DNA from: Pelobates cultripes
Lineage: Eukaryota; Chordata; Amphibia; Anura; Pelobatidae
Direction of reading: 5' to 3'
NCBI GenBank assembly: GCA_933207985.1
Contig: OW240912.1
Span: forward strand, 362,880,212-362,944,211
DNA length: 64,000 nucleotides
Made by a program: the position numbers and the translations under genes. The notes under the pieces were generated by a model, which saw only the letters and a list, made by a program, of their open reading frames with translations, ran no database searches and had not been told where the DNA came from. Below, piece by piece: positions 2,539 to 63,852 of the stretch; position 1 is the stretch's first letter; every line of letters starts with the position of its first letter.

Positions 2539-4760
2539 ATGAGTGGAAAAGGCTCAGTATGTGATGAAACACCACAGCATGCACCACATGGAGAAGGCCA
2601 GGATGAGGACCCAGAGCCCAGTGCATTGGCTAAACGCTCTGTGAAACTCACTTGGAAGGTTAAAGAGAACTATGAATCCTTGAGAACTAAACTATCAACC
2701 AGTTTGTAGCAGATTTGGGATAAAATCCTCACCCACGTTGATGTGAGTATAAGCCATAAGGTACTGCAACTAGAGGCCGCCATAAAGCATCTCTCTGCTT
2801 CATATGAACTGTACCAGACTACAAGCAATAAATATAAACCTATTCTGCAAAACGTTAACACTGAGGAATCATTAGAGCAACTTAGCAATGTCCTGTCCAG
2901 CTTCTTAACATGGAAAGAGAAAGCTTTATCCTGCTAGCTAAAGCAAAGGCAGAAGCAAAATTAACACAGCCACAGGACACTGTATCTCACAGATCCTTAT
3001 CCACCAGACATTCTAAAAGTTCCTCTAGATCCCGAAGTTCAAGGCACTCAACGCTTAGTGAACAGCTTATAAATTCCTGTGCCGAAGCAGAGGCTAGCAA
3101 AGTACAGGCTGCATATGCAAAAAAGAGAGCAGACATGGAGGCTGAGGCTGCAGCAATGCAAGCCGAAGCAGCAGCAATGGAAGCTCAGACAGCACGTCAA
3201 AGGGCAGCAATTGAAGCTTTAAAGGAACAGAGCAACTACGAGGCAGCTGCAGCAAAACAAAAGATTTAGGAACAAACTATTGGTGCAGAGGAAAATGCTA
3301 GTGAAAGGGTCAGCATCAAGGCAGATATGGAAGGTCCTTTCGAACGCACTAAGAACTATGTTCTAAACCACAGCAGCGAGCACTTAATTGCCTCCATTCT
3401 TCACAACAACACAAGGACTTCACCACACCACCAGGCAAAAGCTGTTCCAGCAACTTCCTACATGCAAAACCACCCCAGTGCATCGCCCGACTGTCATGAT
3501 GATTCTGCATATGTCACAGAATGGCACACCAATCTGCAAGCAAGTCACCAACCTTCTGCTAATAGTACCGTTCCAGACTTTAACCCAACAACTCAGCTGA
3601 ACGCCCTTGCTGCACCATATCTTTCCACGTCCTTTTACAACAATACCATAAACAACGCAACCCGCAACATTCAACCAGCGACCTCCTACGTAAAGTCAGA
3701 GGCAACTGATACAGCAGAGTTCGGAAAGTATATACTTCGATGAGAGCTCACCCAGTCAGGCCTAGTAAGCTTCGATGACCATCCTGAAAATTACAGAAGC
3801 AAGAAAGCTGCCTTCAAAACTACTATAGGTGATCTTGGTATTACTGCTGCTGAGGAGCTGGATCTGCTGATCAGGTGGCTTGGCCCACAATCTACAGAAC
3901 GTGTCAAGAGCCTCAGGTCAGTCTACATTGACAATCCAACTGCAGGTCTCACCGCTGCATGGGAACGTCTAGAACAGATTTATGGTAGTCCTGAAGCCAT
4001 AAAGAATGCATTGCTCAAACGATTGGAAAATTTCCCAATGATATCCGGTAAGGACAATAAAGAGTTCCAGAGACTCAGTGACCTTCTTCTCAAAGTCCAG
4101 CTTGCCAAAACCAACCCTAAACTACCGGGCCTCAGTTACCTGGACACTGCTCGAGGAGTTAACCCCATCATTTACAAGCTTCCGTATGGCCTACGAGAAA
4201 AGTGGATACAAATTGGGGCAAAATACAAACGGGAAAACAAGGTTTCATTTCCCCCTTTCTCCTACTTCTGCGAATTTGTCAGGAACATTGCTGACACCAA
4301 GAACGATCCTAGTTTTGCATTTGGCGAGTTCAGTACTTCCTCACTGAAAGGTGACAACCTACATCTCAGCTATAGGAACCGTAGAGGTCCCATGTCTGTT
4401 AAGAAGACAGACATTATTCCCACTCCCACCTCAGCTCCCGCCTCAAACAAGAGCGGCAAGATCGAAAACCCAAACCGATCATGTCCTATCCACAAGAAGC
4501 CACATCTCAAAAAATGTATCGGCTTTAGGAAGAAGCCCCTACAAGAACGAAAGGAACTCCTAAAGACCTTTGGGGTATGTTATAGATGCCGTGCTTCCAC
4601 CGATCACTTTGCCAAGGAATGTAAAATACCTATCAAGTGCATAGAGTGCGGTTCCGAGGACCACGTGCAAGCTCTCCATCCACTTGAGGCCAATCCTTCA
4701 CTACCTGCAAACCTTTCTCCCAGGCCAAATCACGACGGGAAGAGTACAGATCAGGTGCCT
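2539..4760 (+). pseudogene. gag: BEL/Pao gag, broken
   Basis: Gag packages the element's RNA. The likely start is the ATG at 2539 (MSGKGSV). A stop occurs at 2707, then the frame shifts near 2910, and further stops occur at 3267 and 3741. The central part is rich in alanine and glutamate (about 3080-3260), consistent with a coiled coil. From about 3760 to 4100 the translation matches the DUF1759-type domain of Pao gag proteins (FDDHPENY, WERLEQIYG). Two zinc knuckles follow at about 4578-4680: CYRCRASTDHFAKEC and CIECGSEDH. The order and spacing are those of BEL/Pao gag. Confidence 0.85.
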
Positions 4761-9299: not shown

Positions 9300-10765
9300 C
9301 CTGTAACCCCTCTCCCCACTTTCACCCTCACACCCTACCCACCCACTGTCACCCTCACACCTTGCATCCCCCTACTGTCACCTTGTCACTGTCACCCTCA
9401 TACCTGCCCCCCTACTGTCACCCTGTCACCCTCACATTCTGCCCACCACTGTTGTCTTATCACTGTCACCCTCTTACCCTGCCCCCCACTGTCACCCTCA
9501 TACCTTGCCCCCCCCACTGTCACCTTGTCACTGTCACCCTCATACCCTGCCCCAAATGTCACTTTGTCACTGTCATCCTCACACCCTACCCCCACTGTCA
9601 CCTCACACCCCACCCCCACTGTCACCCCACCCCTGCCCCCACTGTCACCACACCCCCAAGATCCCTCCATTGTCACCTTGTCACTGTCGCCTCTATACAC
9701 TGCCCCCACACTGTCACCCTCACACCCCAAGTTCTCCCATTGTCACCCTCATACCTTACACCGTCACTGTCACCCTCATACCCTGTGCCCCCACTATCAC
9801 CCTGTCACTGTCACCCTCATACCCTGTCCCCCCACTGTCACAGTCACAACTTGCCCCCCCCACTGTCACCCTCACACCCTGACCCCACCACACAGCCTGT
9901 CACCAACTTTACCTTCACGTCCTGCCCCTTACCACTGTCACCCTCATACACTGCCCCCCACTGTCACCCTCACACCCTGCCCCCCACTGTAACACTGTCA
10001 CCCTGTCACTCAATGATGCCCCCACTGTCACCCTCATACCCTGCCCTCACCACTGTCACCAGACACCCTGCCCCACCACTACTGTCACCTTCACTCTCAC
10101 CACTGTCACCTCATACCCCTGCCCCCACTGTCATCGTTACCTCTACACCCTGCTCCCCCCACTGTGCCACCTCCTTCTGTCACTGTCACCTCACCCCTGC
10201 CCTGCACTGTCACCCTCACACCTTGCCCTCACCACTTAACACCTCTGCCCCCACTGTCACACACTGTCACTCCTGTCACACCATGCCCCCACTGTCACCC
10301 TCATACCCTGCCCCTCACCACTGTCACCCTCACACCCTGCCCCCACTACTGTCACCTTCACACCCTGCCCCCAATGTCACCCTCACACCCTGCTACCCAC
10401 TGACACCCTCACACCCTGCCTCCCCATTGCCAACCTCACACCCTGCCCCCCACTGTCACCTCCACACACTGCCATCCACTACTGTCACCTCCACACTGCC
10501 AACCTCACATCCTGACCCCATACTGTCATAATCCCATCCTGTGACCCTCACAACCTGCCGCCCACACTGTCACTCTTATATCCTATACCCTAAAATGTCA
10601 CTACCACACTGTCATCCTCACATCCTGCCTCCCACCACCGTCATCCTCACATCCTGTCCTCCACCACTGTCATCCTCACATTCTGCTATCCACCACTGTC
10701 ACCCTCACATTCTGCCCCCACACTGTCACCCTTACATTCTGTCACCCCCACACTGCCCTAGACCG
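9300..10765. repeat. C-rich minisatellite, period about 26 bp
   Basis: It is made of degenerate units such as CTGTCACCCTCACACCCTGC, with lengths of about 24 to 27 bp. The long open frames here, rich in proline, histidine, threonine and leucine, exist because the repeat contains few stop triplets; they are not genes. The array passes directly into the 46-bp satellite near 10760. Confidence 0.93.
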
Positions 10766-12590
10766 GGAATGTAATGGTTAGTGCATACTGAGTTAACCTG
10801 CCCCTAGACCTGGAATGTAATGATTAGTGAGTACTGAGTTATCCTGCCCCTAGACCTGGAATGTAATGATTAGTGAGTACTGAGCTAGCCTGCCCCTAGA
10901 CTTGGAATGTAATGATTAGTGCATACTGAGTTAACCTGCCCCTAGACCTGGAATGTAATGATTAGTGAGTACTGAGTTAACCTGCCCCTAGACCTGGAAT
11001 GTAATGATTAGTGAGTACTGAGCTAACCTGCCCCTAGACCTGGAATGTAATGATTAGAGAGTACTGAGGTAACCTGTCCCTAGACCTATAATATAATGAT
11101 TAGAAAGTACTGAACTAACCTGCCCCTAGACCTGGAATATAATGATTAGATAGTATTGATCTAACCTGCCCCTAAATCTGGAATATAACAATTAGAGAGT
11201 ACTAAACTAACCTGCCTCTAGACCTGAAATGTACTGATTAGAGAGTACTGAGCTAGCCTGCCCCTAGACCTGAAATGTAATAAGAGAATATTGATCTAAC
11301 CCCTCTATCCTCCCCCCCTAGACCTGGAATGTAACGATTAGAGAGTACTACACTAGCCTGACCCTAGACCTATAATATAATGATTAGAGAGTACTGAGCT
11401 AACCTGCTCCTAGACCTGGAATGTAATGATTAGTGAGTACTGAGTTAACCTGCCCCTAGACCTGGAATGTAATGATTAGAGAGTACTGAGCTAGCCTGCC
11501 CCTAGACTTGGAATGTAATGATTAGTGCATACTGAGTTAACCTGCCCCTAGACCTGGAATGTAATGATTAGTGAGTACTGAGCTAACCTGCCCCTAGACC
11601 TGGAATGTAATGATTAGTGAGTACTGAGCTAACCTGCCCCTAGACCTGGAATGTAATGATTAGAGAGTACTGAGGTAACCTGTCCCTAGACCTATAATAT
11701 AATGATTAGAAAGTACTGAACTAACCTGCCCCTAGACCTGGAATATAATGATTAGATAGTATTGATCTAACCTGCCCCTAAATCTGGAATATAACAATTA
11801 GAGAGTACTGAACTAACCTGCCTCTAGACCTGAAATGTACTGATTAGAGAGTACTGAGCTAGCCTGCCCCTAGACCTGAAATGTAATAAGAGAATATTGA
11901 TCTAACCCCCCTATCCTCCCCCCCTAGACCTGGAATGTAACGATTAGAGAGTACTACACTAGCCTGACCCGAGACCTATAATATAATGATTAGAGAGTAC
12001 TGAGCTAACCTGCCCCTAGACCTGGAATATAATTATTAGATAGGATTGATCTAACCTGCCCCTAGACCTATAATATATTGATTAGAGAGTACTGAGCTAA
12101 CCTGCCCCAAGACCTATAATATAATGATTAGAGAGTACTGAGCTAACCTGCCCCTAGACCTGGAATCTAATGATTAGTGAGTACTGAGCTAGCCTGCCCC
12201 TAGACCTGGAATGTAATGATTAGAGAGTACTGAGCTAACCTGCCCCTAGACCTGGAATGTAATGATTAGTGAGTACTGAGCTAGCCTGCCCCTAGACCTG
12301 GAATGTAATGATTAGAGAGTACTGAGCTAACCTGCCCCTAGACCTATAATAAAAAAAAGATTAGAAAGTACTGAGCTAACCTACCCCTAGACCTGGAATA
12401 TAATGATTAGATAGTATTGATCTAACCTGCCCCTAGACCTATAATATAATGATTAGAGAGTACTGAGCTAACCTGCCCCTAGACCTGGAATGTAATGATT
12501 AGTGAGTACTGAGCTAACCTAGACCTGCATTGTTATGATTAAAGAGTACTGAGCTAGCCTGCCCCAAGACCTGGAATGTAACGATTAGAG
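10756..12590. repeat. 46-bp satellite array with higher-order structure
   Basis: The unit contains CCTGCCCCTAGACCTGGAAT then GTAATGATTAGTGAGTACTG. From length and period there are about 40 copies. Distinctive variants recur with a shift of 606 bp: GACTTGG at 10899 and 11505, and TAAGAGAATATTGATC at 11281 and 11887, so a block of roughly 13 units was duplicated. The array is cut at 12590 by a hAT element, and one more partial unit resumes at 17177-17210. Confidence 0.95.
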
Positions 12591-12793: not shown

Positions 12794-14941
12794 TTATTAT
12801 TATTATTATTATTGCCATTTATATAGCGCCAACAGATTCCGTAGCACTTTACAATATTATGAAAGGGGATTTAACTATAAATAGGACAATTAGGACAATT
12901 ACAAATAAACTTACAGGAACAATAGGTTGAAGAGGACCCTGCTCAATTGAGCTTACATTCTATAGGAGGTGGGGTGTAAAACACATTAGGACAGGAATGT
13001 GCAATCAAATAAGGTGGGCTGCCCTTTAGGAGAGGGCAAGAGACGGGTATGTGAGGTAGGGGTTAGTCTTGGAGGCCATAAGCTTTCCTAAAGAGATGGG
13101 TTTTAAGGCACTTCTTAAAAGATGCAAGACTAGGGGAGAGTCGGATGGCGGTAGGCAGGCTATTCCATAGGAAGGGAGCCGCCCGCGAGAAGTCCTGCAA
13201 GCGCGAGTTGGCCGTACGGGTGCGGACAACGGACAGGAGGTGGTCACGGGCAGAGCGGAGAGACCGAGAAGGGACATACCTGTGGATCAGTGAGGAGATA
13301 TAAGAGGGGCTAGAGTTGTTCAGTGCTTTATAGGTGTGAGTTAGTGCCTTGAATTGACTCCTATAGCACACAGGAAGCCAATGTAAGGACTGGCAGAGGG
13401 GTGAGGTGTGAGAGAACCGACTAGAGAGGAAAATCAGTCTAGCAGCAGCATTCATTACAGACTGTAGGGGTGCAGTACGGCTTTTGGGAAGACCAAGCAG
13501 GAGAGGGTTACAATAATCCATGCGTGAAATTATTAGAGCATGGACAAGCTCCTTGGTAGTATCTGGTGCAAGAAAGGGGCGGATGCGGGCTATGTTTTTA
13601 AGATGGAATCTACAGGATTTGGCAACATGCAGGATGTGAGGCTCAAAGGTGAGACCAGAGTCAAGTATGACGCCAAGACAGCGCGCTTGCAAGGATGGGC
13701 TGATGTTGGTACCACAAACTTGAAGGGAGAGCGAGAGAGGAGGATCAGTATTAGGAGGAGGAAAGACAAGGAGCTCAGTTTTTGAGAGATTGAGTTTCAG
13801 AAAGCGGGAGGACATCCAGTCAGAGATGGAAGAAAGGCAAGCAGTGACACGTTGCAGGACAGCAGGGGAGAGGTCCGGGGAGGAGAGATATAGCTGGGTG
13901 TCATCAGCGTACAGGTGGTAGTGGAAACCAAATGAGGTAATAAGTTTGCCAAGAGAGGCAGTATAAAGAGAAAATAGAAGGGGACCAAGGACGGAGCCTT
14001 GGGGGACTCCAACCGAGACAGGGCGAGGGGAGGAGGTATCATTAGAAAAAGAGACACTGAATGAGCGTTGGGAGAGATAAGAGGAAAACCACGAGAGGAC
14101 AGAGTCACAGAGACCAAGCGATTGCAGAGTTTGAAGAAGGAGAGCATGATCAACGGTGTCAAAGGCCGCTGAGAGGTCAAGAAGAATTAGTATGGAGTAG
14201 TGGCCTTTGGATTTAGCTGCGATTAGGTTGTTAGTAACTTTGATAAGGGCAGTCTCTGTAGAGTGGAGAGGGCGGAAGCCAGATTGAAGGGGGTCAAGGA
14301 GAGAGTTGGAATTGAGGAAATGAGACACACGGGTAAAGACGAGTCTTTCCAGAAGCTTTGAGGAAAAAGGGAGCAGGGATATGGGACGGTAGTTAGAGGG
14401 GGTGGACGGGTCAAGGGATGTTTTTTTTAGTATAGGTACTACAGTGGCATGTTTAAGGTCAGCAGGGACGATGCCAGAAGAGAGCGAGCAGTTGAAGATG
14501 TGTGTTAGAGAAGGCACGAGACAAGCGGAGAGAGATCTGATAAGGTGAGACGGGACAGGATCGAGCGGGCAAGTGGTGGGGCGAGAGGAGCAAAGAAGAG
14601 CAGCCACCTCTTGGTCAGTGGCTGGGGAGAATGTCTGAAGGGTAGGAAAGGCATGATCAATGTGTGATTGAGAAACAGAAAGGCAAGGAGGGGAGAATTC
14701 TTTCCTTAGCTTTTCAATTTTGTCAGTGAAGTAACATGCAAAGTTATCAGCAGTAAGGTTGGTTTGGGGTGTGGCCACAGCGGGGCGAAGAAGAGAATTA
14801 AAGGTGTCAAAGAGACGCCTGGGGTTGCGGGAACATGAACTAATGAGAGAGGAAAAATAGGACTGTTTGGCAAGGGCAAGGGCTGCACTGTATGAACACA
14901 GTATGAATCTATAATGGAGAAAGTCTGACTGGGTGCGAGTC
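12794..14941 (-). mobile_element. L2-clade LINE, 5' truncated
   Basis: The element reads on the minus strand. Its 3' end carries an (AAT)n tail, seen as ATT repeats at 12794-12815, next to CACTTTACAATATTATG, typical of amphibian and fish L2-like 3' ends. ACAA at 12790-12793 and 14942-14945 is a short target duplication. The endonuclease region is missing, and a reverse transcriptase frame occupies most of the copy. The insertion point is exact because the second arm of the foldback element preserves the empty site. Confidence 0.88.
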
Positions 14942-14943
14942 AC
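13063..14943 (-). CDS. L2-type LINE reverse transcriptase (open, 5' partial)
   Basis: This 626-codon frame has no stop and encodes the polymerase and C-terminal part of an L2-clade ORF2 protein, which copies LINE RNA into DNA at the target site. Catalytic motifs are visible: [14 protein letters not shown] (aspartate near residue 256), [10 protein letters not shown] (near 312) and YADDTQLY (345-348). The C-terminus ([12 protein letters not shown]) is typical of the clade. The apurinic-type endonuclease that should precede it is missing. The ATG near 14943 falls at the junction with the foldback element, so it is not the natural start. The unbroken frame suggests a young insertion. Confidence 0.85.
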
Positions 14944-15630
14944 AACACCTCTATATCACAGTAAGTTGAATTATACACACAAAAATATATATTAAAAGTT
15001 TGCAAAAGGAGTCTTTTAAGGGTTAATCCTTTGTTGCAGTTGAAATGATAACATCCGTGGATACACTGAAGCACTTGTGTAGGTTATACCTTAAAAGGAT
15101 ACAAAAAAAGGATTTGCATAGTGTAAAACTGCTTTAATAATAAAAAGAGATACCCTTTCCCCCAAATATGGACTCTTACATTAGCAAATGGTGATACTTG
15201 TCTCCAAGATATCACAATCAGGTTTCACAGAATCAGAGGTTGAATAGCCGTTTTACCGTCCACTGGTCCTGATGGTTCAAAACTCCCGCCCGATCTCAGC
15301 GCTGAGGGGGTGGAGTATAGCATACAGGCTGACCATGTCTGTGTGTGGTCGGTTCAAAAGCAGGCTGTCATCATCAAAGCCTCTGCGTCCTGGATACCGT
15401 TGGCACTTCAACCCGTTTCGCCCGTTCTCTCTGGCTTTTTCAAGATAGACTCCTTTTGCCAACTTTTAATATATATTTTTGTGTGTATAATTCAACTTAC
15501 TGTGATATATAGGTGTTGTTTATACATCATTTACCTATAGAGAGAAGTTGTTTATTTTTTCCACATATACATAGATTGCCTCAATAGAAGGCTTTTGCAC
15601 ATAGCGCTGGCACTTTGTTATTATATGTTA

Positions 15631-26737: not shown

Positions 26738-27335
26738 TATGAATTGGATACTTGTGAAACATACCATAGAAATATACAGAAAGGTTTATTTCTGGACATT
26801 AAACTCGTGCATTTCAGCCGTACCACTTTGCCCAAAATTATACAAAAAAATTAGGAAGGCCGAATTTTAGCCATGTGGCGGTTCTGCTTGTCCGAATCTC
26901 CTTAATGAAAAAAGATTTGGGAAAACGAATTAGACTAACCAAAAGTGCAAAAGTGGGTAAATCAGTGTACCGCACAATATACACACAATATAGATATTAT
27001 GTATATATGTTATAGTACATTTAGATTTGTATATTATATACTGATTATTAAATTGTTACTCCAACTATCGTAACCACTTCAGTGATTTGAAGTGGTGAAA
27101 GTGGTAGCAGTATGTATGTGCAGTGTTCCAGCTTGAAAGACTGCTTTCCCCTTCCAGTGTCCCACCTCCCTCTGTTGAAGACAGGTTTTTATTTAAAAAA
27201 AACAAAAAAACAAAAAAAAAACAGCCCTCCATCCAGAAGTCAAAGTGCAAGTTATTTCCAGAACTAAGAGTATACAATCCCACCCCTAGAGTCAGTGATT
27301 GTGTTGTTTTTGTCCATGTTTTCTTTTTGTCACTC
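26738..27335. other. Short intergenic stretch, no feature
   Basis: AT-rich sequence with an A-rich run near 27196-27222. Nothing coding is recognised. Confidence 0.45.
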
Positions 27336-27339
27336 TCAA

Positions 27340-27810
27340 TTAGTGATGTCGCGAACCCGAAATTTTCGGTTCGCGAACGGCGAACGCGAACTTCCGCAAA
27401 TGTTCGCGAACCGGCGAACCGCCCGAAACGCCATTGACTTCAATGGGGAGGCGAATTTTAAAACACACAGGGACTCTTTCTGGCCACAATAGGGATGGAA
27501 AAGTTGTTTCAAGGGGACTAACACCTGGACTGTGGCATGCCGGAGGGGGATCCATGGCAAAACTCCCATGGAAAATTACACAGTTGATACAGAGTCTGGT
27601 TTTAATCCATAAAGGGCAGAAATCACCTAACATTCCTAAATCACAATCAATATGGATTGACACCTGACATATGACATATTGACACCTTGACATATGGATT
27701 GACACCTGTCCTCAGAGCCCCTGATACACACTGACACAGAGCAGAATAGGGACTGGTCCCCCTACATCGGGTCACTTGGCAGATATGGATTGACACCTTG
27801 TTACAAACTG
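27340..27810. repeat. CpG-rich GCGAAC repeat, unclassified
   Basis: It begins TAGTGATGTCGCGAACCCG and continues with several GCGAAC words (27350-27430), then a non-coding body to about 27650. After that come short direct repeats built on GACATATGGATTGACACC (27653-27800). The dense CpG content contrasts with the flanks. I cannot assign it to a transposon class. Confidence 0.5.
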
Positions 27811-27815
27811 CTATT

Positions 27816-29090
27816 TGTAACGGGCCCTTTAAATGGCAAATTGCCCTGTTTCCCTGGGTTGTGGAGAAGCCTCTTTGCCAGCCTCCTCCCGCATGACTAT
27901 GGCCCCTGGGAGATTGTGAAAATGTATGCACTTTTATTTGGTGTGTATGGCCCTTTAAGACTGTCGGTGGGCATATTGGGGCTTATGGACTCTTTATGTG
28001 ACTGGTGCTGGCCCTTTAAACACCTTTTTTGGGACATCAGGAAGATTGGGACACTGCCCCTTTAAGGCCGTGTCCCCAGACTTGTTGGGGACACGGCCCC
28101 TTTAAGACGGTGTCCCCTGTGTCCCCAGACCTGGTGCAAACCCTTTGTGCCTGCCTTGCTATTTCCCACTTGGTTCAGTAAATGGAAATTATTTCAGCTG
28201 CAGAGACTAAGTCCCATTCGGCGATGGGACTTAGTCTTTTTTTCAGCCGTTTTTTTCAGCCTTATTTCAGCTGCAGAGACCAAGTCCCATTCGGCGATGG
28301 GACTTAGTCTTTTTTTCAGCCGTTTTTTTCAGCCTTATTTCAGCTGTAGAGACTAAGTCCCATTCGGCGATGGGACTTAGTCTTTTTTTCAGCCGTTTTT
28401 TTCAGCCTTATTTCAGCTGCAGAGACTAAGTCCCATTCGGCGATGGGACTTAGTCTTTTTTCAGCCGTTTTTTTCAGCCTTATTTCAGCTGCAGAGACTA
28501 AGTCCCATTCGGCGATGGGACTTAGTCTTTTTTTCAGCCGCTTTTTTCAGCCTTATTTCAGCTGCAGAGACTAAGTCCCATTCGGCGATGGGACTTAGTC
28601 TTTTTTTCAGCCGTTTTTTTCAGCCTTATTTCAGCTGCAGAGACTAAGTCCCATTCGGCGATGGGACTTAGTCTTTTTTTCAGCCGTTTTTTCAGCCTTA
28701 TTTCAGCTGCAAAGACTAAGTCCCATTCGGCGATGGGACTTAGTCTTTTTTTCAGCCGTTTTTTTCAGCCTTATTTCAGCTGCAGAGACTAAGTCCCATT
28801 CGCCATGGGACTTAGTCGTTTTTTCAGCCTGAAATAGACCGACCTCACAGCCCAAATCTATGGAACTGTTTTGGGCAGGAAAATGTGCTTGCAGTCGGTC
28901 ATAAAGGGACCTACAGCTAATTTTTTAACCCCTGGATGGATTTGGCTGATTTTTTGGTTATGTTTATGTTTTAAGTGTGCTGATTCCAAATATGTAATTA
29001 TGAAGATGGGATGTGTAGTTTTAAAGTTACAGGGTATGGCTAAAACTGTATTTTTACTGCCTGTGTTTAATTATGTTAATCTCTTCCCAA
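27816..29090 (+). repeat. Gypsy-like LTR fragment with internal array
   Basis: It starts TGTAACGGGCCC. It shares phrases with the solo LTRs at 42980, 46229 and 59945: GACTATGGCCCC near the start, GGAACTGTTTTGGGCA near 28862, AACCCCTGGATGGATTTGGC, and a GTTTAATTATGTTAAT segment near 29065. The second half of the LTR is missing, cut off near 29090 where zinc-finger/U2-like sequence starts. A 73-bp tandem array has expanded inside it (28189-28835). Confidence 0.7.
28189..28835. repeat. 73-bp tandem array, nine copies, each with a hairpin
   Basis: Each unit has TTATTTCAGCTGCAGAG, then GACTAAGTCCCAT, the loop TCGGCG, ATGGGACTTAGTC, and finally two T-rich tracts separated by CAGCC. The 13-bp stem is perfect in eight of nine copies; the second copy has one change (GACCAAG). 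The T tracts vary in length from copy to copy. The last copy has a shortened loop (TCGCC) but keeps the stem. Confidence 0.95.
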
Positions 29091-29130
29091 ACGTCATTTC
29101 GCTCAAAGTGGAGAGAATGTTAAAAAAATA

Positions 29131-29220
29131 TATTTTTGTTCGGAGTGTGAGAAATGCTTTTCAGCCGCTTCTAATCTTAAGCATCATTTGAGGAGCCATA
29201 CATGAGAGAAACCTTATTTG
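29131..29220 (+). pseudogene. C2H2 zinc-finger remnant
   Basis: The translation contains FCSECEKCFSAASNLKHHL followed by RSHT, a stop and EKPYL. This is one canonical C2H2 finger (CX2CX12HX3H) followed by the TGEKPY linker in which the glycine codon has become TGA. A second, more damaged copy lies at about 29898-29975 (EKCFSATNLKHHLEG). Both are directly followed by a U2-like unit. They are too few and broken to be a working gene. Confidence 0.7.
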
Positions 29221-30229
29221 TGGTGTGTTTAGTATTGTTCTGATCAGTTTAATACCTTCCGCGTCTCCTATCAGTGGACGCGTATATGGCAGCCATTTTA
29301 GGAACCGTACACCTGGGACCCGAGCAAGGTCACCTCGTTCAACAGGCGACAACATTTGTCCCTGGAAAACTATCCTGGACATTCTGTACAATTTGTATGG
29401 ATATGGCAGTGATTTCTGTAACAGGAGATCGGAAGACAGCCAGCCATGCTTGCTCGGCCCTCTTAATTCAAATTTGGGGCACTGCGCGGTCAAGCTAATG
29501 TGCCACCAGATAGGAGTGGTGTGTTTAGTATTGTTCTGATCAGTTTAATACCTTCCACGTCTCCTATCAGTGGTCGCGTACACGGCATTGATTTTTGTAA
29601 CAGGGAGATGGAAGAAGAGGCTTGGTCGGTCCTCTTACTGCAAATTTGGGGCACTGCGCGGTCAAGCTAATGTGACACCAGATAGGAGTGGTGTGTTTAG
29701 TACTATTTTTGTCAGTTTAATACCTTCCGCGTCTCCTATCAGTGGTCGTGGTAATAACGGTACTTTCCTTTTGCACAGGGAGGATGGAAGAAGAGGTTTG
29801 GCTCTGTCCCTCTTACTGCAAATTTGGGGCACCGCGTCAAGCCACGTGACACCAGATAGGAGTGGAGTGTTTAGTACCATTTTATCAGTTTAATACCTGT
29901 GTGGAGAAATGCTTTTCAGCCACGAATCTTAAGCATCATTTGGAGGGAGCCACACAGGAGAGGGAAACCTGCTATTTAGTGCGTGTGTTTAGTATTGTTC
30001 TGATCAGTTTAATACCTTCCACGTCTCCTATCAGTGGTCGTGTACACGGCATTGATTTTTGTAACAGGGAGATGGAAGAAGAGGCTTGGTCGGTCCTCTT
30101 AATCCAAATTTGGGGCACTGCGCGGTCAAGCTAATGTGCCACCAGATAGGAGTGGTGTGTTTAGTATTGTTCTGATCAGTTTAATACCTTCCCCGCCTCC
30201 TATCAGTGGTCGTGTACACGGCATTGATT
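29131..30229 (+). repeat. U2 snRNA-like units mixed with zinc-finger remnants
   Basis: Units starting GTGTTTAGTATTGTTCTG occur at 29224, 29521, 29693, 29985 and 30157, with a truncated one at 29867; the regular period is about 172 bp. Inside each, ATCAGTTTAATACC, the Sm-site-like GATTTTTG and CAGGGAGATGGAA follow in the same order and spacing as in vertebrate U2 snRNA. The 5' stem I region of U2 is absent from the repeated units. At 29131-29220 and about 29898-29975 the same array contains translated C2H2 finger sequence. No unit looks like a functional U2 gene: the loop and stem sequences have diverged and no promoter elements are evident. Confidence 0.65.
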
Positions 30230-30329
30230 NNNNNNNNNNNNNNNNNNNNNNNNNNNNNNNNNNNNNNNNNNNNNNNNNNNNNNNNNNNNNNNNNNNNNNN
30301 NNNNNNNNNNNNNNNNNNNNNNNNNNNNN
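30230..30329. other. Assembly gap of 100 N
   Basis: Exactly 100 undetermined bases, a conventional placeholder for a gap of unknown size. It interrupts the U2-like array, so the true copy number is unknown. Immediately after it, ATCGTTTCGCC and ACGGCTTAG weakly resemble the 5' end of U2. Confidence 0.98.
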
Positions 30330-30999
30330 CTAATCGTTTCGCCTTACGGCTTAGCTAGCAAGCCAGTACAAGAACCCTGGGTACAAATAATTGCATCTTT
30401 ATTGTTATTTAAGTATTTCTCCAAAAGATGCTGAAGAATCACCTCTTCCTAGCACCCCGGCTAGAATTGATACACCTTCAAGCAGAGGAGATGTTGCTAG
30501 TCCTGCATCAATCAGATCCTGGACGATCCCACACATTACCACCGACCTAAGGAGGTGACAAATCCCCTTCCCTGCTACAGCAAGGAAAGCAGAGTTATTC
30601 AAACTCCTCCATACATCAACGGACAACACGGAGGCAGGGGAAGGCCCAGCTACATCAACTCAGGTGACACCCAGGCTATGCTAGCCTCACTCATAAACTC
30701 ATGAGCCAAAAATTTTATGACAGACTGGCAATCTCGAGTTGGTCACCACAGCCCTCACAAGGCTGGGCCTCACGTTACTGTACAACCAGCACCAACCGAA
30801 ACACGGTTACCTGATACAATCAATTCTTATGACACACAAGATGTTAACCCTGCACGTATGATCCCAGCACATTGGGGAAGCAAGGCATATATATGTATGA
30901 TGATGTATCTGTGATGCTCAGATTCAGGGATTCCAGGTAAATCGGGAACTGACCATCTCTTGGATGGGTTGGTATTTGGAATATGTAGAGATGTTTATT

Positions 31000-33350
31000 T
31001 GTGCAGGTACCCATACAGAAGGGGTTCTGTCCCAAACAAATGGACGAGCACTCTCAGGCTCCAGGTACCAGCACCTCTGAACTACCAGAGACTATTGATA
31101 TGAGTAGTTGCATTGCATATAGACTGTTGCATATATGTTCAAATGGTTCAGGGCACATGACAAACCATGTGGCCCAATACAACTTACAAATAACGTACTC
31201 ACCATCTGTACACACCAATGTATTTTCAACACTACTGACTCATCACCCTTCCAGACTTGTAGTAGATTTACTAAAGCTCTGGAGCTTCAAAGGGCTCCCA
31301 TACAGGTATCATAAACACATCTTCAAGGAATATAGCATGCCCTCACTTACAGTCAGCACAACAAAACCATTGGCTGAAAACACACTCATAGCCAAGATTT
31401 GCAGAGTGGTCTTCCTATCTCCACCATTTACAGCATGGCACCAAACACACACATTGGTATTGTCACAAGGAATCTTCCCTTAAACAAAGACTAACCATAG
31501 ACTTATTGGCACCACACACCTCCGCTACCCAAAGTCTCAACTCCCTTCTTACTATACAACACCATTGATCTACCTTTACAGCTATCACTCAAGCATGGGT
31601 TAAAGCTTGGTTAAGTAAGACCAATATCATCAACGCAGTAAACAGCTACCATCTACCCTACACACTGGCACTTACATGGCATAAATTGGGCAATCCTTTC
31701 CCTTCTCAACTTTCGAGCTACAGATTAACCTACTATCGATATTCGCAGATACTCTGTGCTGGTTATGATAACATATCCAGAGGCATTACAGTCATACACT
31801 ATCTAGAAGACTTCTTGTTGCTCAAAGAAAGCATATTTTTCAATAGAAGCCTCATGGCAGCTTAGTCTGGTTGACCACTTGGGCGTCCCAGTACCCCATA
31901 AGAAACAGAAGGCGCAGACACTATCATCACATTACTGGGCATATGACTTGAGTCGGCATCCATACAGCAAGTTACCACAAGACAAATAGGGAACATTCTC
32001 AACTAAATCAATCACTACCTCTTGCTTAGTACTTACAACTACAAGGAACTACAATCCCTAACAGGTTCCTTAATTTTGCCATGCCAATCATACCACAAGA
32101 CCACGCTTTCACATCCAGAGTACTTTCCCCTTTTTTCCACACTTCCAACATGACGATCAGAGGAGGTGCCTAGACACCTCAGCAACAGCAGACCTGCACA
32201 TGGGGGGGGATTTCTTAACCACTTGGCATGGTAAAAGCATGTTCCTTCCAGGATTGTCTGACACTTCTCCAACCAGATGGTCAGACGCAGCGTATACCAC
32301 AGGTTTGGCAGCGATCTACCGGAAACAATTGCTTTGGGGCTGTTGGCCATGGCATCCAGGTTTTGATATTTTTCCACCACTTCAGCCCCTTTGGGAGATC
32401 TACCCCATTGTAGCAGCTGCTGTGGCATGGGGTAAATCATGGTCAGGGTCATCAATCCGTTGTTACTCAGACAACTAAGCACATATCATATCATCAACAA
32501 ACGCCACTACTCATCCATAAGTTCATGATGTTTCTGGGGAATTCACTTGGTTGGCCACTTATCACATTTCACTTTCATGTACCAGACGGGGGTATACATC
32601 CCTGCCGACAACTGTCTCATTTATATTCCAGGCATGTTCATCATACGCTTCCTACAGCCGCCCATACAGTCACGTCCACTCTTTCGTTCCAGAGACAAAT
32701 CATGGATTAGACATACTCATGCAGCATAGCATGCACTATCCCACCTAGCACTTTCGTCCCATACTTGTAGAACGCATAACACAGCTTTTCACCTGGCTTA
32801 AAGAATCTCATTGGAACACGACATAGCTCAACCTGTGTCACAAAATTTCTCCTAAGTTTTGCTTATTTTTGCCAATTTAAACTTAAACTATCTCATACAC
32901 CATTAATTATATATTTTACAGGCATTCAACAACACATGATAACCTATGGCCAAAACTACCATAAACTTCATGCTATCATACCAGAAAAGAATATACTCAG
33001 AGGTTTTCAGAAATCCATTCCCCCACGTTCCTCTCAGAGATTACCAATAGCCATCCAACTGTTCATCCTTATCGGACCTATTAGATCTACAACCATTCAA
33101 TTATACTACCAAGTCGTCCATTACCAGCCATGCACATTGCCTTTTATGCCTTTCTCAGGCCAGAGAATCCACTACCATCACCACCACTCAGACAGATCAT
33201 TGTCTTCAACGATCCCACGTACGTAAACACATATATCATTACCTATTGGCTCTACCACATTCCGAAATGAGTCAACATGCACCAACAGTAGAGATAACAT
33301 ACTATCCTACCCACAACAAATGGTGCCCACTTTCGGTCCTAGATTCCTAC
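31000..33350 (+). pseudogene. RT, RNase H and tyrosine recombinase relic
   Basis: These are the coding remains of the DIRS/Ngaro-like element. An open stretch at 31001-31483 covers the region before the reverse transcriptase (including TTKPLAENTLIAK). The polymerase motif HYLEDFL has Glu in place of the first catalytic Asp, which should abolish activity. The RNase H stretch (32200-32480) keeps its first acidic residues. The recombinase segment keeps the AFYAFLRP core, but the frame is broken before the HxxR and Tyr region, which I could not recognise. No function is expected. Confidence 0.65.
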
Positions 33351-33455
33351 CTTCAAAATCCTTTCAGGAATTAAATACTGTAATGCATTTAAGGAAATGT
33401 CTGGTTAATTTGTATATATTTGTTGACTGTATTAAATCTTTGATTATTCATTTTT

Positions 33456-33583
33456 GCCCTCTTTATTTACAGGCCTACCGTATCGTCGGTATCGGCACAC
33501 CACAACCGACTTGCTCCCTTTACACTATCCTAAGCTTATGCTGGATCCTTACTCCATATACGGCTATTTTGCCCCTTACACAA
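33456..33583. repeat. Direct repeat copy 1 (128 bp) of the Ngaro-like element
   Basis: Begins GCCCTCTTTATTTACAGGCC and ends GCCCCTTACACAA. By eye it is identical to 33768-33895. Confidence 0.9.
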
Positions 33584-61200: not shown

Positions 61201-61359
61201 GCCTTATGATGTGGTGTCCAGAATGAAGTGGGGGGATCACTTCACTTGTCCTTCCTGCTCCAATCTCATTTTCTTCTCCACACAGTCTTTTTTTTTCTGA
61301 CACTGTCTTCTATTATCCTTGGCTCCTTCTGCTCCTTTACCTTTCTGCTACTTTCTGCT

Positions 61360-63852
61360 CCTTGCAGAACCTTCCTTCTACTTGCTGACCCCTCCTGCTC
61401 CTTGCTGACCCTTTCTGCTCCTTGCTGCCTCTTCCTACTCCTTGCTGACCCCCCTGCCCCTTGCAGACCCTTCCTACTCCTTTCTGACCCCTCATGCTCC
61501 TTGCTGACCCTTACTGCTTCTTGCTGACCCTTACTGCTTCTTGCTGACCCTTACTGCTTCTTGCTGACCCTTTCTGCTCCTTCCAGACCTGTTCTGCTCC
61601 TTGCAGACCCTTCCTACTCCTTGCTGCCTCTTCCTACTCCTTGCTGACCCCTCCTGCCTCTTGCAGACCCTTCCTACTCCTTGCTGACCCCTCCTACTCC
61701 TTGCTGACCCCTCCTACTCCTTGCAGACCCCTCCTACTCCTTGCAGACCCCTCCTACTCCTTGCAGACCCCTTCTGCTCCTTGCTGCCCCTTCCTGCTCC
61801 TTGCAGAACCTTTCTGCTCCTTGCTGCCCCTTCCTACTGCTTGCATACCCTTTCTGCTCCTTGCTGCCCCTTCCTACTCCTTGCTGACCCATCCTGCTCC
61901 TTGCTGACCCATCCTGCTTCTTGCTGACCCTTCCTGCTTCTTGCTGACCCTTCCTGCTTCTTGCTGACCCTTCCTGCTCCTTGCTGACCCTCCTGCTCAT
62001 TTCTGACCCATCCTGCTTCTTGCTGACCCTTCCTGCTCCTTGCTGACCCTTCCTGCTCCTTGCTGACCCTTCCTGCTTCTTGCTGACCCTTCCTGCTTCT
62101 TGCTGACCCTTCCTGCTCCTTGCTGACCCTTCCTGCTCCTTGCAGACCCTTCCTACTCATTGTTGCCTCTTCCTATGCCTTTAAGACCCCTCCTGCCCGT
62201 TGCAGACCCTTTCTACCCCTTGCTGACCCCTCCTGCTCCTTGCTGCCCCTTCCTGCTCCTTGCAGACCCTTTCTGCTCCTTGCTGCCCCTTCCTACTCCT
62301 TGCATACCCTTTCTGCTCCTTGCATACCCTTTCTGCTCCTTGCTGACCCTTCCTACTCCTTGCTGACCCTTCCTGCTACTTGCAGATCCCTCCTACTGCT
62401 TTCTGCCCCTTCCTACTCCTTGCTGACCCTTCCTGCTCCTTGCAGACCCTTTCTTCTCCTTGCTGACCCCTCTTGCTCCTTGCTGACCCTTCCTACTCCT
62501 TGCTGACCGCTCCTGCCCCTTGCAGACCCTTCATACTCCTTCCTGACCCCTCCTGCTCCTTGCAGACCCTTTCTGCTCTTTGCAGACTCTTTCTACACCT
62601 TGCTGACCCCTCCTACCCCTTGCAGACCCTTCCTACTCCTTGCTGCCCCCTCCTGCTCCTTGCAGACCCCTCCCTGCTCCTTGCAGACCCCTCCCTGCTC
62701 CTTGCAGATCCTTCCTACTCCTTGCTGACCATCCTGCTCCTTGCGACCATCCTGCTTCTTGCCTGACCCTTCATAGCTTCTTTGACCCTTCCTGCTCGCC
62801 GCAGACCCTTTCTGCTCCTTACCCGAGACCCTTCCTACTCCTTGTTGCCTCTTCCTGTGCCTTTCTGACCCCCTCCTTGCCGCAGACCCTTTCCTACTCC
62901 TTGCTGACCCCTCCTGCTCCTTGCTCCTTGCAGACTTGTTCGCTCCTTGCTGCCCTTCCTGCTCCCTTGCAGACCCGCTTTCTGCTCGCGCTGACCCCTC
63001 CTGCTCCTTGCTGCTCCTTGCAGACCTGTTCTGCTCCTTGCTGCCCCTTCCTACTCCTTGCATACCCTTTCTACACCTTGCTGACCCCTCCTACCCCTTG
63101 CAGACCCTTCCTACTCCTTGCTGCCCCCTCCTGCTCCTTGCAGACCCCTCCCTGCTCCTTGCAGACCCCTCCCTGCTCCTTGCAGATCCTTCCTACTCCT
63201 TGCTGACCCCTCCTGCCCCTTGGAGACCCTTCCTACTCCTTGCTGACCCTTCCTACTCCTTGCTTACCCATCCTGCTCCTTGCTGACCAATCCTGCTTCT
63301 TGCTGACCCTTCCTGCTCCTTGCAGACCCTTCCTGCTCCTTGCAGACCCTTTCTGCTCCTTGCAGACCCTTCCTACTCCTTGTTGCCTCTTCCTATGCCT
63401 TTCTGACCCCTCCTGCCCCTTGTAGATGCTTTCTACTCCTTGCTGACCCCTCCTGCCCCTTCCTGCCCCTTCCTACTCCTTGCATACCCTTTCTGCTCCT
63501 TGCTGCCCCTTCCTACTCCTTGCTGACCCTTCCTGCTACTTGCAGACCCCTCCTACTCCTTGCTGACCCTTCCTGCTCCTTGCAGACCCTTTCTTCTCCT
63601 TGCTGACCCCTCCTGCTCCTTGCAGACCCTTCATACTCCTTCCTGACCCCTCCTGCTCCTTGCAGACCCCTCCCTGCTCCTTGCAGACCCTTCCTGCTCC
63701 TTGCAGACCCTTCCTGCTCCTTGCTGCCCCTCCCTGCTCCTTGCTGACCCCTCCTGCTCCTTGCTGACCTTTCCTGCTGCTTGCTGCCCCTTCCACTCTT
63801 CCTATTCCTTGCTGATCCCTCCTGCCCCTTGCAGAACCTTTCTGCTCCTTCT
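61360..63852. repeat. 20-bp CT-rich minisatellite with 480-bp duplication
   Basis: Units vary around TTCCTGCTCCTTGCTGACCC. Because 20 is not a multiple of three, all frames on both strands stay open, giving leucine/proline-rich or glutamine/glycine-rich open frames that are not genes. A block near 62588-62729 recurs at 63068-63209, and a distinctive TTGTTGCCTCTTCCTATGCC variant recurs at 62160 and 63380. Within 62730-63000 units are irregular with single-base gains and losses. Confidence 0.94.

Follow-up and report, generated by a model that had tools for sequence, protein, structure and literature searches.

U2 snRNA-derived tandem units and a zinc-finger gene fragment carried by a probable hAT-like transposon of the frog Pelobates cultripes

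In a 64,000-nucleotide stretch of the Pelobates cultripes genome (assembly GCA_933207985.1, contig OW240912.1, positions 362,880,212 to 362,944,211 of the forward strand; hereafter the window), we find six U2-like units arranged head to tail next to a piece of a C2H2 zinc-finger gene (Table 1). They are very probably the work of a frog hAT-like transposon that took up nt 31-142 of U2 together with a piece of a C2H2 exon, amplified the U2 part in tandem and spread recently. The original prediction had described at least five tandem 172-bp units fused with zinc-finger remnants at 29131..30229. Six units were found and TRF returns a period of 172 bp, so that the tandem arrangement is borne out, whereas the range turned out to be merely the middle of a larger element starting at 27341.

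Table 1. Features of the window copy of the element and, where stated, of two other copies
Feature	Position	Strand	Remarks
Candidate target-site duplication CTCTCAAT	27333-27340	.	8 bases beside left end
Transposon left end	27341-27440	+	TAGTGATGT inverted repeat, then GC-rich subterminal motifs (TTCGCGAACGG...)
Left internal region	27441-28188	+	its 91-bp repeat is tandem in other loci
73-bp hairpin tandem array, 8.8 copies	28189-28829	+	TRF
Spacer without tandem repeats	28830-29079	+	part of element
C2H2 zinc-finger gene fragment	29080-29229	+	finger 29131-29199; stop codon in linker
U2-like unit A	29221-29516	+	with ~110 bp extra; scored as 29221-29507
U2-like unit B	29517-29688	+	U2 nt 31-142 at 29523-29635
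U2-like unit C	29689-29862	+	U2 alignment, shuffle test, own-genome U2 score
U2-like unit D, truncated	29863-29898	+	U2 alignment, shuffle test
Second zinc-finger segment copy, frame-broken	29899-29980	+	duplication, shift ~754 bp
U2-like unit E	29981-30152	+	U2 alignment, shuffle test, own-genome U2 score
U2-like unit F	30153-30229	+	cut by assembly gap
Assembly gap, 100 N	30230-30329	.	conceals remaining array and right end of window copy
132- to 156-bp tandem arrays near right end	L024 element 2570-3703; L014 element 3064-4159		

The four U2-like strings on which the prediction was built keep the order they have in U2, but are complete and exact only in units B and E (two of six), while A, C, D and F hold variants or parts of them. 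The additional stretch of unit A (about 105 bp, 29292-29396) has no counterpart in the other units. A local insertion was considered as its origin and dropped, as the same stretch recurs in 20 of 21 loci and is missing only from L027. Elsewhere, the window harbors a 630-aa open non-LTR reverse-transcriptase frame on the minus strand (13063-14955; RVT_1, 131.7 bits), whose best named matches are frog proteins of 60-64% identity, as well as two large satellites detected by TRF, one with 39.6 copies of a 46-bp unit at 10756-12590 and one with 122.2 copies of a 20-bp unit at 61351-63794.

As judged by sequence comparison, the array units are descendants of U2 snRNA. In blastn, U2 nt 31-142 are matched by units B and E (E 5e-16), and Smith-Waterman alignment to human U2 gave z values of 8.4, 18.2, 12.4, 7.5, 19.5 and 9.0 for units A to F, every unit scoring above all of its 500 dinucleotide shuffles. 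Outside the array, no 200-bp tile scored above 47, compared with 106 for both B and E. The human sequence serving as this first reference is the one we take to be human U2. Its nt 93-142 agree with the probe, and three of its stretches with the primers, printed in the accessible sections of PMC3019111 and PMC12691288, respectively. The Rfam U2 consensus also aligns, with nt 30 as the starting point in unit D and nt 31 in the other five. The decisive reference, however, is L035, a U2 gene (190.8 bits) found in this genome itself; with it, the scores are 122 for B, 100 for C and 118 for E instead of the 106, 81 and 106 obtained with human U2. The aligned bases identical to this gene are 89/111 for B, 113/147 for C and 88/111 for E, corresponding to about 80% for B and E. 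The gene belongs to a U2 locus at C13:50873366-51423439 (L035-L042) where four copies exceed 180 bits, 46 of 178,253 candidates having been scored, and where many degenerate U2 copies, mostly of 99 to 126 bits, are scattered in either orientation across some 550 kb.

Own-genome and human U2 differ at 11 sites, which we compared in the 70 units scoring at least 90 against U2. The own-genome base is carried at U2 positions 72 (67/70), 108 (68/70), 122 (70/70) and 124 (70/70), the human base at position 107 (69/70), and mostly neither of the two at positions 78, 80, 85 and 135. Position 151 is covered by four units, all with the own-genome base, and position 178 by none. That the likeness to U2 arose by chance would agree with the silence of Rfam U2 at E ≤ 10 and with a U2 structure that is not kept, yet z values as high as 19.5, the better fit of the own-genome gene and the bases shared with it leave this explanation a vanishingly small probability; the U2 likeness proposed originally is thus real.

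Among the 133 units scored in 20 further loci and the window, two types can be told apart, 122 being of the 172-bp type and 11 of a 271-bp type. Of the 48 positions of nt 31-78, 34 are identical to own-genome U2 in the commonest copies of both types, 11 in only one of the two copies and 2 in neither, and a non-U2 base common to both occurs at a single position. The two copies differ from each other at 13 positions, at 11 of which own-genome U2 equals one of them. As U2 bases lost from one type are preserved in the other and vice versa, we consider the types two descendants of one U2 copy, with an ancestor nearer to U2 than either. The comparison with human U2, extended to nt 84, is less clean: 34 columns are alike, in 12 one type equals U2, 9 have a common non-U2 state and 6 are all different, gap columns included.

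The original prediction expected the U2 covariance model to give a significant hit. Rfam RF00004 found nothing at its gathering score in the window and nothing at E ≤ 10 in 28500-31000 or 29515-29700, while the same tool scored a true U2 at 172.1 bits as positive control. Formally this outcome speaks against the prediction; we read it as the result of lost structure and divergence rather than of non-descent. A covariance model based on three U2 sequences produced weak matches only (best 22.9 bits, E 0.0053), and as an unrelated minus-strand match of 15.4 bits ranks fifth of its eight, these scores lend function no structural support. Stem I is absent from the units, in agreement with the 5' stem having been described as missing. 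Stem IIa keeps 2-4 of 6 pairs (five units, D lying outside the alignment), stem IIb 5-6 of 7, stem III 6 of 11-13 scorable pairs and stem IV 5-6 of 12 (three scorable units). The branch-site-pairing sequence GTAGTA of U2 reads TTAGTA in the units, and no 3' box was found in 29101-30229. With stem I absent, IIa broken and Rfam U2 silent, the units are decayed DNA copies and not snRNA genes.

The translated unit yielded 32 candidates in a protein search, none of them at E ≤ 10, and no match came from pattern scans of viral contigs. The 60-bp tail following the U2 part showed no convincing match to U1, the 3' part of U2, whole U2, U4, U6 or 5S; its best score, with U1, was reached by 26 of 500 shuffles. 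By eye, this non-U2 tail of the 172-bp unit shares a CAAGCTA-TGTG-CACCAGAT stretch with the 132- to 156-bp arrays of the carrier, the local alignment to the 132-bp array scoring only 34. A gypsy-type RNase H sequence adjoins a 271-bp unit in L023; a retrotransposon origin of the tail suggested by this neighbor was rejected, the junction preceding the tail as judged by eye.

The zinc-finger remnant next to the array is genuine. The finger at 29131-29199 scores 26.2 bits with PF00096 (cut-off 25.2) when read with X at the linker stop, and is preceded by a partial finger. The prediction had placed two units directly behind a C2H2 finger with a broken linker, which is accurate for the first, while the second copy is frame-broken and gives no finger match in Pfam. 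Rather than an open multi-finger exon, the window thus holds one full and one partial finger, with a stop or frameshift in both copies. An open zinc-finger frame exists in L024, but its 23.7 bits lie below the PF00096 cut-off. As 29145-29305 matches 29899-30065 at 84%, we take the two zinc-finger/U2 junctions of the window to be copies of one. All 21 loci, with the window counted among them, contain the 76-bp zinc-finger core (29145-29220), and eight of them have two to four zinc-finger matches each.

A search of the 3.09-Gb assembly with unit B returned 596 candidates at first look, and 40 of these were scored. The best 40 places listed, the window included, are full-length, at least 99% identical and distributed over C1 to C10 plus a small scaffold. 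A purely local satellite was therefore dropped as an explanation, the unit recurring at 99% on ten large contigs within a common element. We examined 20 of the 39 places outside the window. The left end at window position 27341 is common to all of them and is followed by the zinc-finger piece, so that the composite repeat of zinc finger and U2 that had been proposed is a genuine dispersed one; since the loci were picked by similarity to unit B, 20/20 is no census. The 73-bp repeat of the left part contains an inverted repeat (GACTAAGTCCCAT...ATGGGACTTAGTC) able to form a hairpin and varies in copy number among loci, with 1 to 6 matches in each of the 20 fetched loci and 11 in the window.

On the right, the window provides no end: 30330-33583 has no match to the 20 loci, and no second CTCTCAAT was found on the plus strand of the window, the partner side being masked by the gap. 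A right end is seen in L013, L014, L023, L024 and L025 and, after extension by 5 kb, also in L022, L031 and L018. The dispersed copies with target duplications that the prediction had suggested looking for could be recovered here, as exact 8-bp duplications stand beside the TAGTGATGT...ACATCACTA ends in five of these eight loci (L014, the outer copy of L023, L024, L025 and L022), at a chance of 1.8e-5 per pair. They are missing at the inner left end of L023 as well as at L013, L018 and L031. Additional blocks are present in L013 and L018 and two right ends in L031; nesting or misassembly is a possible cause of the missing duplications in these three. As assembled, and each including a 100-N gap, the five duplication-bearing copies measure 4,536 (L014), 7,724 (L023), 4,063 (L024), 6,278 (L025) and 10,044 bp (L022), the four shorter ones aligning to L022 in largely colinear blocks, some of which are duplicated or inserted.

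These copies bear on the known ways in which U2 sequence becomes repetitive. A plain U2-derived satellite lying by chance beside a zinc-finger pseudogene would be tandem and derived from U2, as the units are, and the 172-bp head-to-tail array has a precedent in U2_sat of Ciona, described in the accessible part of PMC4640811. An identical left end and zinc-finger piece upstream of the array in 20/20 other loci nevertheless contradict this reading at every locus examined, and it is very unlikely to apply. The same part of PMC4640811 describes U2-targeting retrotransposons as known in many eukaryotes, reports Keno from frogs and mentions Phytophthora U2 genes that were disrupted by Utopia and lack their first 38 bases, so that the units might be U2 fragments left by such elements, that is, downstream U2 flanks from nt 39. 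Here, however, the similarity to U2 sets in at nt 31, behind the zinc finger or the preceding unit. When the window is counted together with the 20 loci, nt 31 is the starting point of 120 out of 148 U2 matches and nt 39 of none, making this origin extremely improbable.

The prediction had also brought up snRNA-headed SINEs, which are dispersed, RNA-copied and have no flanking inverted ends. An RNA copy of this kind, made by a LINE, would account for U2 sequence in dispersed copies, and in both cases snRNA sequence lies within a dispersed repeat. The units, in contrast, begin at U2 nt 31 instead of nt 1 and are tandem inside an element with inverted ends, target duplications and transposase-like frames. 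The SINE lead is not supported, being refuted for the five duplication-bearing copies, 4 to 10 kb long, and very improbable overall.

A DNA transposon is the reading we continue with. The short terminal inverted repeats, TAGTGATGT at both ends, follow a pattern typical of hAT elements. Minus-strand frames with a BED finger are present in the 10-kb copy of L022 (zf-BED, 26.9 bits), where a 406-aa frame weakly matches the Hermes transposase over residues 25-248 (E 0.0011) and contains no Pfam transposase domain. In L023, a 380-aa minus-strand frame has a BED finger of 37.1 bits; a protein search with it found two relatives only, both unnamed. The hAT dimerisation domain of Pfam was not detected in the frames scanned. 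Long matches to the transposase-frame region of L022 occur, among the stretches examined, only in L031 (1,276 bp) and L023 (908 bp). In L014, L024 and L025 the absent middle falls on a 100-N gap, so that internal deletion is only putative there; most of the transposase region is also absent from L013, which is free of gaps but not flanked by a duplication. From the inverted ends, the 8-bp duplications in five of eight loci and the transposase-like frames in some copies, we conclude that the carrier is a hAT-like DNA transposon. It has the duplication length, short inverted ends, BED finger and weak Hermes similarity in common with Hermes-like members of the hAT superfamily and differs from them by its host-derived U2 and zinc-finger pieces and its several tandem arrays. 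The BED-finger frames (L022, L032 and L023:6662-7801, minus strand) are situated between 271-bp U2-like units and 132-bp arrays, and part of the 271-bp unit resembles the BED-frame region (94 bp, ~98-99% in L013, L017, L023 and L028).

In Xstir of Xenopus and miDNA4 of X. tropicalis, too, satellite-like arrays that vary in copy number lie within a class II element; as described in the accessible parts of PMC12628747 and PMC9659126, their repeats are MITE-derived or MITE-captured, whereas here the repeat is partly host snRNA and the carrier a larger hAT-like element. U2_sat of Ciona is likewise a satellite from U2 genes, but a satellite family with occasional YURE insertions and not part of a transposon (PMC4640811, as far as its accessible part goes). 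Tailless snRNA retropseudogenes, covered in the accessible part of PMC5322556, include truncated U2 copies and are as such a possible source of the captured piece, although they are single LINE1-made insertions and not arrays in a DNA transposon. The accessible parts of three frog U2-mapping and satellite studies (PMC10361878, PMC12191414, PMC12619069) mention no U2-derived satellite. An array on a frog DNA transposon is therefore known as such, while its combination with U2 and a zinc-finger scrap in a hAT element was not among the papers listed in the literature searches; Repbase may contain the family.

Over the first 350 bp, copies differ by a median of 0.86% across 210 pairs (maximum 6.3%), and the window copy differs from the others by a median of 0.43%; as resemblance to unit B was the basis of their selection, these values describe the young end of the family. 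The number of scored 172-bp units ranges from 1 to 12 per locus, gaps shortening many of the arrays. In the most likely order of events, a hAT-like element would have acquired U2 nt 31-142 and the piece of a C2H2 zinc-finger exon before the U2 part grew in tandem into the 172-bp and 271-bp arrays, and a recent burst would then have dispersed the copies. The host pieces may have been captured by template switching during gap repair, or through an inserted truncated U2 pseudogene, and shorter copies, presumably lacking the transposase, were probably moved in trans by longer ones.

The U2 arrays would be passengers without RNA function in our reading. It is unlikely that the transposon benefits from its U2 array and zinc-finger piece and retains them for this reason. 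Weakly in favor of this, both pieces were kept through the burst in all 20 fetched copies, which had been selected by their U2 unit. If retained for use, the array may be transcribed into a U2-like RNA with an Sm site that engages or diverts RNA factors of the host; alternatively, it may promote transposase binding or escape from silencing as a subterminal module.

The family illustrates how spliceosomal RNA sequence and pieces of genes can turn into mobile DNA that forms satellites, through capture by a cut-and-paste element, tandem growth inside it and dispersal. Such copies should accordingly not be annotated as U2 genes or snRNA SINEs. The family being young, the growth of its arrays and the capture of gene fragments can be traced from copy to copy.
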